A stretch of 64,000 nucleotides of DNA. It comes from Helicostylum pulchrum. Taxonomy: Eukaryota; Mucoromycota; Mucoromycetes; Mucorales; Mucoraceae. The stretch is taken from assembly GCA_025677825.1 (NCBI GenBank), contig JAIXMO010000022.1, positions 1 through 64,000 on the forward strand, written 5' to 3'. The notes beneath the pieces were generated by a model. That model worked only from the letters and a program-made list of their open reading frames with translations, ran no database searches and was not told where the DNA came from. Within the stretch, counting starts at the first letter, position 1, and each line of letters opens with the position of its first letter. The translations under genes and the position numbers were made by a program. Of the stretch, positions 24,489 through 63,852 are shown piece after piece.

Positions 24489-24720
24489 ATTGTACCAGGA
24501 GTTACAGAATAAAGAAAGAAAAGATTTATATATTTCCTGGTACACGAAAAAATGTTTAACTTTTCAAGTCTTAGTCTGTTACTTTTCACTTACCTTTACG
24601 AATGGCCAGTGCTCTAAGAGGAACTTTATCAGTTAGAATAAATGTATTTAAAAAGGCTATTTAGATGTGATAAAATAGGATGATAAAATAGGAAGAGGAG
24701 TCACTTTTATTTACTCTAGT

Positions 24721-24940
24721 GATTTATTTACTCGTTCAATTTCGTTTTATCCGCACAAAAAAGAATCAAATTAGGACAAGTACACATACGTACAATAAAA
24801 ATAATTAGCTAACGTATAAGTATGTCAATATGAGTAAATATTACAAAGTTAGCTAATTATTTTTATTGTACGTATGTGTACTTGTCCTAATTTGATTCTT
24901 TTTTGTGCGGATAAAACGAAATTGAACGAGTAAATAAATC
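24721..24940. repeat. Perfect 93-bp inverted repeat with 34-nt loop
   Basis: Left arm 24721-24813 and right arm 24848-24940 are exact reverse complements over all 93 positions. The loop is 24814-24847. Outside the arms the pairing continues imperfectly (TTTTA...ACT against the complement of AGTAAAAG). A transcript across it would fold into a long uninterrupted hairpin. Perfect arms imply recent origin or gene conversion. There is no reading frame of note inside. The remaining gap to 25265 holds only A/G-rich tracts. Confidence 0.97.
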
Positions 24941-25265
24941 ATCAAGTAAAAGCCAAACGCGAAATAAACAAGTGTTGACTATCACTTTTCGGCTAACTAG
25001 ACATTTAGATTGTTAATGGAACATATGTAACTAACTGGACCAAACTTTTAAAACTTTCCAATTCTGATAAATACATTCTCTTAATATGTAACGCTTAAAT
25101 TTTTTCGTTTTTTATTTTTGAACAATTTGATAGTTATAAAAGAGAAGGGAGGAGATCAATTGAGGCTAGCTAAAAAAAAAAAAAAAGAAAAAGATAAAGA
25201 TAAAGAAAAAAGAGTATTTGAATAAAGTGAGAGGGGAGGGGGGTTATTTTATACAAAAAAAAAAG

Positions 25266-26694
25266 TTACTTTTCTTCATGAGTTAAAGAAGAAGTAAGGT
25301 CGGGAGAGCTCTTTAACTCTTCTACAGAATATTGCCTTGATTCAGACTGCATATCTTGTTGCTTTTTTACATCAGGTTCTTCACTTTCAACAGAGATAGC
25401 ACACTTTACAGTTAAATCAGAAGTTCTATTAATCTTTTGGTACCATTCTTCTTCTGTTTGACCATTTAAGAACGCAACAATTTCTACAGTCATATTATCA
25501 CAACCAACACCACCTGTACCAGTTTTTTCAGCAAGACAATGATCCATCAATCTCTCACAAATCTCCTTTAATGAGATTCCTTCAACAATACGAGATCTAA
25601 TAAATGTTGCCACTTCTTGATTTGTTAAACAATCCCAAATACCATCGCAAGCTAATACCATAAACTCATCTTTTTCAGTCATCGTATGAGCAGTAATATC
25701 GGGGTCTGCTGTAACAGCTTGTTCTTCTGCAGGTAAATCTCTGGCTGTTTTGAATTCGAAATCACCTAAAGCTCTTGATAATGCGAGATTACCTATTTGT
25801 ATGATACTTTTTTTAGTTTAATTGTTTCAATAGAAAAAAAATGGAGGGGGGGGGGTTTGTAGTACCATTTACACGTCCAAACTCTACGTGTCCTCCAGCC
25901 TTAGTAATTCTTTCGGTTTCTTTAGGATTACCAGGTTTATGATCATCAGATAAAGGATGGGCAACACCAGCAGTGCATAAAATAGCACGAGAATCACCGG
26001 CATTACTCTTTTTTTTTTGATTATTACACGTATCAGAATATGTGTATAAACAATAAAACCAAGTTTTAAAAAAGTAAAAATAAAATGAAACTTACTACAT
26101 ATAACACGTTATCTTTTGTCAATAATGCAACAATGGCGGTACACCCAGAAGCCTCGCTTACATAGGTGGGGTCTAACATTTTTTTAAAATTAATACACAA
26201 GAACATTATTCTATTTTGTTTTGAAGTTTCATCATCACCTTCACGAAGATCAGAATCAATCTTTAAGAATCCTTTTCTAAGACTGGATTCAAAGTCACCC
26301 ATTTCAAAGTCTGCTGAGTCGATAACATTTTCGGGTAACTTTTCACTGCTGTACTTTGCTACGTTGGCGCCTTTTTTTTTACACGAAAAAAAAAAAAAAA
26401 GTTAATAATACATGTATAAAAAAGGACAAAAAAAAAGACAACTTTTACCTCCGTGGCCATCGAATACAGCAAAGAAAGCAGCACCGGTATCTTTATACTG
26501 TAAAATATGTGTATGTGCATCTTCCATAGCTATGAAACGCGTTTTAATTATTTAAATAAAAATAAAAAAAAAAGTACAAACAGAAGCTTACTTATTCTCC
26601 AGCCTTGCATAGAGGAAGCACCAAACATCAAACGGTCATCTTTTCCTTCACTAGAATTCTTTGTCGTAATGGGCGCGGAAAGAATTTGACCCAT
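25266..26694 (-). CDS. Protein phosphatase 2C (PTC2/PTC3 type)
   Basis: Join (minus) 26592-26694, 26449-26529, 26096-26370, 25866-26007, 25266-25792; 375 aa with all phases consistent. The N-terminus MGQ is a possible myristoylation site. Metal-binding motifs of the PPM family are present: GWRI(T)MEDAH, FDGHGG, SGCTA, NAGDSRA, SRALGDF, ACDGIWD and [10 protein letters not shown]. It is therefore a Mg/Mn-dependent Ser/Thr phosphatase, most like the PTC2/3 group that down-regulates stress MAP kinases and checkpoint kinases. A C-terminal tail of about 80 residues rich in Ser and Glu is probably regulatory. Intron acceptors sit in homopolymer runs. The gene marks the left border of the conserved block. 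Confidence 0.93.
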
Positions 26695-61920: not shown

Positions 61921-62093
61921 TGTGGAAAAATACTTTTATATTTGACACAGAAAAATTAATAAAACAGGAGGAATAAGATTAAAGGTGTATTTCTTATTCT
62001 TTGGTGTAAAATCAATCCCGGTAAAAGGGATTGCAAACTCTCGTTTGTTATTTATACTAATTTTAATAGCGGTCGCATTATTGTGATTGATTG
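61921..62093 (-). promoter_or_regulatory. 5' flank of the 61399-61918 gene, inverted homologue of 5028-5173
   Basis: Read on the minus strand it starts CAATCAATCACAAT, passes the conserved stem CAATCCC...GGGATTG and ends TATTTTTCCACAC three bases before ATG. Similarity to 5028-5173 covers nearly the whole length with small insertions. Its position just before a start codon suggests a promoter/5'UTR that is part of a repeated unit. Confidence 0.7.
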
Positions 62094-62259
62094 TTGCTTT
62101 TACAGACTAAAAGATCTTGAATATTTACTAGATTCAGTGTTATTTTACTTATGTTATGTTTTATAATCGATGGTTCATCGATTATTAATTATATTTATTT
62201 TATGTGGTGATTTCACCACACATAGTATATTTTGTTAAAGTGAAAAAAAAAGGTTAATA

Positions 62260-62329
62260 CTTGATGCACGCACTATTTACACGCGTCACACTTTATGAAT
62301 TTGTGCGTGTAAATAGTGTGTACATCAAG
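62260..62329. repeat. Hairpin with 25-bp arms and 20-nt loop
   Basis: Left arm 62260-62284 and right arm 62305-62329 pair at 23 of 25 positions (CTTGATG-ACGCACTATTTACACGC against its complement). The hairpin lies 170 bp upstream of the repeated 5' flank and may be a terminal structure of the same element. Confidence 0.9.
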
Positions 62330-62339
62330 AATTACTCTT

Positions 62340-63852
62340 GTTTCTGCAATATCAATGTTATTCCAAGGTAGTTTTTTTTTTGTGAATTTAATTACAATCT
62401 CTTCTAGTTTTAGTTTATAATGTACTGACATTGTACTTCACTTTTACCACTATTTATTCTTATCTTGATCTGAATTGGGCCCGGGTATTAAGTCGGGCTA
62501 GCGTATATCTTTGGGACTTGGTTGTGGTATATGCTCCCGGCTAGATTAATCTTGTGAGCTTGGGTGGTTTCCCATACCATCGACGATAGCCTTCCTTTAG
62601 GATCTTCTTTACTACTAGCGATTAACTAGGAAGGATCATTTCTTTAAAGTATTGTACCTTAAAAAAAATCTCCTCTCCAAAGGGGGGGAGCCAATTGAAC
62701 CCATCTGCCATTTTACAAAAAGCCCAACACCTTCTAGTTATGCCAATAGAAACTGGATACATTCACTCCGAGTTATCTTATGTAAAAGAAGCAGTAGTTT
62801 TATGCTAATAATCTGTTTGTTATTTATACATGTACTACAGGGTTTTGCAAAGTTTATCATCGTAGGTAACATAAGATAGTTTTCATTCTACTTGACATAA
62901 TCACTGACACCACCAGCCCCATTAATAGTGTACAAACAAACCTACTAAACTTTTCTTCCCGAAACCTTATTACTGTCATTGCATTAAGGGTACCTGCATT
63001 TTTTTTTTTTTTTTTCACTTCTGCACAAAAGAGTACCCTGTAAAAGTAACGATATAGCTCTTAACCTATTATCCTGACGGCGAAATTAGGCCCATTTTTG
63101 GATGGTTACATTTCTGTATATTGTTTGAAATAAGCAGGTTTTTTTTTATTTTTTTACAAAAGAGAGAGGCCAAGCGAGCTTAGTCTCCGACATTTGGTTA
63201 GCCTTTTCATTACGGACAGTAAAATATCGGTCAATGCCCAAATATACTTTTTAAGAAAAAAACATACAACAAACTCCAATATTTGCGGTCAAGAAGAAGA
63301 AGGAAAAAAAAAGCATGATATTCCCATGGAATTATGTACTACCGGAACGAAATATACGGAAAGAACGAGTTTTACCACTGAAATATTAAAAAACGAACGT
63401 GTTATACAGGTACCAAAACGGTTTTTTTTTTTATCGATTGAGTCAAATTTGCAATTCAAGTTTTTTTGAGCAATAGTTGAATTACGTCCCCCAGCAAAGA
63501 AGATTTTACTGATACCAACGAGACAAAACATATAGCAAACGTAGGATCTAGATACTTTTTAAACGATTCAAGATATACTTTTTTTTGCCAGCAAGCATTT
63601 TTCGCTGTATTATCTCTCAAACCAGGTTAGGCTCGATGCCAGATGAGGCGCCGAACAAAAAAAAAAGAAAGGGAAAAAAAAAAGAAAAAGGTTGATAAAG
63701 AACAATTAATAAAAAAGATGAAACGATAACGAGAATTATTTAAAAAGACCTACATGTGCGCGCGTATATGTGTGGCTTACTGATAATCGACATTTGGGCT
63801 GTTGAAAAAAAATAAAGACACGAATAGATTATTTTTTTTTTTTTTTTTGCAG
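62340..63852. other. Gene-poor stretch with a G/C-richer patch
   Basis: 62470-62640 is richer in G and C than its surroundings and ends GGAAGGATCATT, identical to the conserved 3' end of eukaryotic 18S rRNA, but the preceding bases do not read as 18S to my eye. An exon-like frame at 63284-63410 (DIPMELCTTGTKYTERTSFT) precedes a GTACCA. Nothing else is recognised. Confidence 0.4.

Follow-up and report, generated by a model that had tools for sequence, protein, structure and literature searches.

A perfect inverted repeat in a 64,000-nucleotide stretch of DNA from Helicostylum pulchrum (hereafter, the window) probably arose by a recent mutation in a diverged copy of a terminal inverted repeat (TIR) transposon, through a template switch between strands during replication (probability of around 0.8). 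Point mutations alone would not easily produce a long perfect stem. The hairpin is a readable case, probably formed in one step; the native order of the element is preserved in its sister copies. RNAi operates in the fungal group to which the host belongs, which makes the dicing of a newborn hairpin directly testable. The initial annotation had offered an inverted-duplication mutation as an alternative, and it is this origin that the evidence supports.

Geometry and folding of the hairpin

A repeat search placed the arms of the hairpin at 24720–24813 and 24848–24941; they are 94 bp each, 100% complementary and separated by a 34-nt spacer. The perfect pairing and the 34-nt loop had been recognized in the initial annotation, but the arms were given there as 93 bp, with the outer coordinates one base short at each end. 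Its view that the arms are young or homogenized within diverged DNA agrees with their identity at 94 of 94 positions; from 0 differences in 94, arm divergence is at most 3.1% (95%). Folded as RNA, a 232-nt stretch that contains the hairpin has an energy of −150.1 kcal/mol, compared with a mean of −34.7 kcal/mol (s.d. 4.2) for 200 dinucleotide shuffles (z = −27.7). Three inverted-repeat pairs were detected in the window (≥40 nt, partners within 3 kb, exact seed of 12): the hairpin, at 100%, and two others, at 82% and 71%.

A dispersed TIR transposon family

Rather than standing free as a hairpin gene or foldback element, the hairpin lies inside one diverged copy of a dispersed, MITE-like TIR transposon, a copy on the minus strand at about 24527–24999. 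On one side of the hairpin is the 3′ part of the element (24527–24719, minus strand), including the 3′ TIR (24527 to about 24560); on the other is the native upstream (5′) flank (24942–24999, minus strand), in which similarity to the family stops near 24996–24999. Only the 3′ TIR is clear in this copy, and the 5′ TIR, beyond 24996–24999, is diverged or lost.

Used as a query against the host genome (32.2 Mb, 168 contigs), the hairpin gave at least 80 matches, spread over the window and 39 further loci; the count is a lower bound because 40 of 44 candidates were scored. These 39 loci and 32 more from two flank queries make up a set of 71 sister loci that includes many partial copies; four family ends on host contigs C98 and C145 lie outside this set and were examined separately. 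The TIR core TTTATATTTCCTGGTAYANGAAAA occurs at 86 sites with up to 2 mismatches, versus 0 sites for the reversed control. A motif search located both TIR ends in 14 of the 71 copies, 358–611 bp apart, with 4 of the 14 (L015, L032, L044 and L065) being loose two-end matches. The family thus has the terminal inverted repeats and the many copies by which MITEs are defined. No open reading frame of ≥90 amino acids overlaps the window copy, the one copy that was examined for coding, and no target-site duplication was clear by eye in the flanks of the element. A phage collection queried with positions 24600–25000 gave no match, and the literature on MITEs in Mucorales held nothing about this TIR family among the matches listed.

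Rearranged order of the window copy

We compared the order of three diagnostic blocks (the arm start, the arm end with the loop, and the block ahead of the 3′ part) between the window and its sisters, with motifs that were derived from one alignment and that match L009 best, a point against the comparison. All three blocks are held by 16 of the 71 copies, and their order is linear in 16 of 16. In the window, the minus strand reads native 5′ flank, right arm, inverted loop, reverse complement of the arm and 3′ part; that is, it contains a local reverse-complement copy of adjacent sequence. Compared with L009, about 50 bp (49 bp) of native sequence is missing.

By context, the right arm (24848–24941, minus strand) is probably the original, because it is contiguous with the native upstream flank; in 10 of the 16 in-order copies, a single alignment covers the flank and the arm, up to the arm end or close to it. 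The left arm (24720–24813, plus strand) would then be the copy, and sisters hold other sequence at its position, just ahead of the 3′ part.

The loop (24814–24847, plus strand) is inverted relative to the native element, as it follows the left arm in the sense of the family: its first ~23 nt come after the left arm just as they come after the arm end in the family. In 13 of the 16 in-order copies, alignments of the left arm plus loop take in 19–32 nt of the loop, and the first-listed hits reach at least 19 nt of the loop at 18 of 39 loci. Aligned alone, the loop scores higher in the left-arm sense in 14 of the 16 copies and ties in 2 (L028 and L041). Counting against this, its own best match lies apart from the arm in 4 of 16 (L024, L066, L072 and L080), and its last ~11 nt have no clear alignment to the sisters. 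A spacer inversion is found relative to 13 of the 16 copies, the paralogues serving as the guide to the ancestral order.

Long reads and libraries are known to produce perfect inverted repeats as artefacts, and the initial annotation had raised the possibility of an assembly foldback, in which one arm would be a chimeric read product of the assembly or library. Such a product is expected to have mirror-image flanks, whereas the left flank here is the 3′ part of the element and the right flank its 5′ part; moreover, the loop is inverted and the outer junction lies at an inverted microhomology. The asymmetry of the flanks makes a simple foldback a poor fit, and we consider such an artefact quite unlikely.

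Absence of the hairpin from sister copies

No hairpin comparable to that of the window was found in the 71 sister loci (0/71), in searches for exact repeats and for imperfect repeats of ≥35 columns, or in the four further family ends on C98 and C145. The search for imperfect repeats recovered the window hairpin as a control. With two-letter runs ignored, the longest exact inverted repeat among the 71 loci is 29 nt, at L014, outside the element. Imperfect inverted repeats of ≥35 columns occur at 14 of the 71 loci and are mostly TIR pairs or short palindromes, none of them resembling the window hairpin; the longest, at L076, extends over 118 columns (68.6%), and 202 nt separate its two halves. 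In a mobile foldback family, several members would share the long palindrome, and 0 of the 71 loci have it. The suggestion of a newborn foldback element is therefore unsupported: the hairpin is the product of rearrangement within a larger TIR element, and none of the 71 sister loci shares it.

Arms of inverted repeats are known to homogenize, as the available part of one report describes (PMC8604942), and the arms here are perfect although the element is diverged. The hairpin could be older, its arms having been made identical again and again by template switching or gene conversion, whether or not selection favoured a hairpin RNA. A degraded version of it is present in 0 of the 71 loci, many of which are partial; the 0 of 94 differences between the arms suits one recent event, yet is compatible with homogenization. 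We regard such an older origin as improbable.

Even less probable, in our estimation, is a nested insertion, in which a second copy of the family entered in inverse orientation and a deletion came afterwards. The family has many dispersed copies from which such an insertion could come, but no near-100% match to the arm exists elsewhere among the matches listed, the longest of which are below 85%. For the left arm plus loop, the first-listed hit has 71.5–83.9% identity at 32 of the 39 loci, and identities of 85–93% at the remaining 7 are confined to blocks of 42–61 nt. The loop pattern, with up to 3 mismatches, occurs in the window alone, so the exact parent was not found. An 11-nt gap common to both arms was considered as a private mark of the window copy and was dropped as an argument, because it is also present in L014–L016.

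Junctions and a proposed template switch

The outer junction (24697–24732, minus strand) reads AGTAAATAAATCA (24732–24720) followed by CTAGAGTAAATAAAAGTGACTCC. At the corresponding place L013 natively has AGTAAATAAATCACATGAGTACATAAAA, L028 and L032 have close forms, and most other sisters have AGTAAATAGATCAC. An inverted microhomology of 12–13 nt is present here, between the sisters’ native AGTAAATA(A/G)ATCAC and the arm start TGATTTATTTACT. At the inner junction the arm ends in TTAGCTAAC, and past the loop sisters have GAAGCTAATGG or GAAGTTAATGG. These suggest an inverted microhomology of 4–7 nt. As the final ~11 nt of the loop align poorly, we infer this match from diverged relatives rather than from the true parent.

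We propose that, during synthesis of the element’s minus strand, the growing end (the end of the right arm) quit its template and annealed to the opposite strand just past the loop through a few bases of inverted homology. Copying would then have run back across the loop and along the arm, until a second inverted match, of ~13 nt (TGATTTATTTACT/AGTAAATAAATCA), allowed a return to the original template. The product would be the order observed: flank, arm, inverted loop, arm′ and 3′ part. One switch between strands would explain the duplication of the arm, the inversion of the loop, the loss of native sequence and the microhomologies together. A two-step route, with correction of the arm followed by a flip of the loop through recombination, would leave an identical product and could also have operated.

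A forward–reverse–forward alignment (match 1, mismatch −1, gap −2, jump −8) is consistent with a template switch. Aligned against the 16 in-order copies, the window gains 48–95 in score (mean 72.2); as a control, the same copies used as queries against one another have average gains of 23.4–46.5, with single values of up to 72. The gains of the window exceed every control value in 8 of the 16 comparisons and are at or below 72 in the other 8, an overlap that counts against the proposal. Against all 71 loci, they range from 15 to 122. The first switch falls at 24834–24860 in 11 of 16 comparisons and the second at 24711–24741 in 10 of 16; counting against the proposal, both are as expected in just 7 of 16.

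Comparison with known systems

The mutation mechanism itself is already known. In MITEs that act as sources of microRNAs, such as Made1 for hsa-mir-548, the source is the element’s own TIR palindrome. The window hairpin resembles hsa-mir-548 in that MITE sequence forms a hairpin; there, in the portion of the report available, the MITE itself is the source (PMC1784062), whereas in the window a new palindrome probably arose inside the element.

In yeast REG2, arm conversion with spacer inversion lengthened the arms from 5 to 16 bp within a gene, according to the accessible part of the study (PMC8604942). Both there and here, one switch between strands would have extended a short inverted repeat into a perfect one of greater length and inverted its spacer. 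The window differs from what that part of the study describes in that short microhomologies would have given rise to 94-bp arms, far longer than those of REG2, around a 34-nt spacer and inside a transposon (PMC8604942). The hairpin of MIR633 has been attributed to template switching, and its loop was later inverted in the baboon lineage, as far as the available sections of that report go (PMC8794818). It shares with the window hairpin a perfect stem from a reverse-complement copy and an inverted loop, the inversion being a later event in MIR633; unlike the window hairpin, which is known from its sequence alone, MIR633 is an annotated microRNA with a phylogeny. Mitochondrial genes of nematomorphs likewise hold perfect inverted repeats, of up to 284 bp in the sections available (PMC6649704); those repeats are many and lie in conserved coding regions, whereas the window has one, in a nuclear transposon.

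The maize locus Mu killer, as presented in the part of the report available (PMC3440606), is also an inverted duplication in a rearranged copy of a DNA transposon, beside a gene, and the window hairpin too would in principle be able to yield a hairpin RNA matching sister elements. The inverted duplication of Mu killer is ~1.3 kb, contains transposase sequence and silences MuDR; that of the window is 94 bp, has no known coding part and has been described as DNA sequence only. Among the literature matches listed, which mostly leave subscription papers outside their coverage, we found no template-switch hairpin inside a fungal MITE.

Potential for small RNA production

The best-scoring Argonaute match of the host, ranked among the 7,999 candidates that share most words, is from Mucor saturninus (95% identity over 91% of the query), in line with the placement in Mucorales made by the initial annotation. 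The active RNAi pathway presumed there is matched by the gene content of the host, which comprises one Piwi-domain match, RdRP matches on three contigs (one with two internal stop codons, in matching without introns) and RNase III domains that are paired at two places, plus a single one. Equipped with genes for Argonaute, RdRP and paired RNase III domains, this Mucorales host could dice a transcript of the hairpin. Our default reading is that the hairpin is an unselected mutation scar and, if transcribed, a putative Dicer substrate.

By analogy with Mu killer, the hairpin might instead be a natural hairpin RNA locus, the diced transcript of which silences sister elements in trans. This reading concerns function and is compatible with an origin by template switching; we consider it unlikely. 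The RNAi genes of the host fit it, and exact matches to arm 21-mers occur in 15 of the 71 sister copies, with one 23-mer exact at 5 other places. In Mucor circinelloides, an expressed hairpin RNA silences genes, according to the available part of the report (PMC3720535). A source of transcription could be the neighbouring gene on the same strand, the C-terminal part of a PP2C phosphatase (25266–25682, minus strand), whose stop lies 324 bp before the hairpin; an AATAAA, the only one between that stop and the hairpin, precedes the hairpin at 25116 and counts against this. For Mu killer, the accessible sections dispute read-through from a flanking gene as the source of silencing (PMC3440606). There is also no clear target worth silencing, because the sister copies are diverged and no open reading frame of ≥90 amino acids lies over the window element. 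Rfam searches of 5 loci gave 8 matches to the hairpin, all to microRNA families and on the perfect stem, and all below the gathering scores. It is similarly doubtful that one replication error turned a gene-adjacent MITE into a hairpin that serves, as Mu killer does, as a source of small RNAs in trans, which would make it a newborn silencing locus whose arms have yet to mutate.

Other repeats in the window and the family

Elsewhere in the window, positions 62241–62348 hold a 44-nt inverted repeat that is 82% complementary with a 20-nt spacer. It was considered as an older relative of the hairpin and rejected, having only weak similarity to parts of the TIR family. A repeat at 61989–62220 is shared with the flank of copy L036 (75% over 246 columns) and is another dispersed sequence. 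Among the sisters, the 29-nt exact repeat of L014 is part of a 104-nt near-palindrome (L014:184–287) beside the family copy. The inverted stretches of L076 (oriented positions 319–435 and 638–745) are perhaps two old inverted repeats or pieces of elements.

An inverted pair of family ends 11 kb apart on C98 was examined as a candidate autonomous partner and proved to consist of duplicated DNA arranged as a large palindrome, in which stop-to-stop frames reach 170 amino acids at most. The palindrome (C98:320600–332100; L081 and L082) spans ~11 kb, with arms of several kb at 98.75–99.5% identity, and stems either from inverted duplication of a genome segment or from the assembly itself. Related DNA on C145 comprises L083, which has one candidate frame of 513 amino acids, and L084, near the contig end.

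Within the family 3′ part (24527–24719 in the window, minus strand), several sisters have a stretch like ..AGAGCAATGGTCATCCGTAAAGGTAAGTGA.., which resembles a short exon with a splice donor, or a coding tail, and has perhaps survived from an autonomous parent. A second type of 3′ end (..CACGTACCAGCAAGTATAAT) occurs in L032, L044 and L065, which suggests that the family includes subfamilies with different ends.
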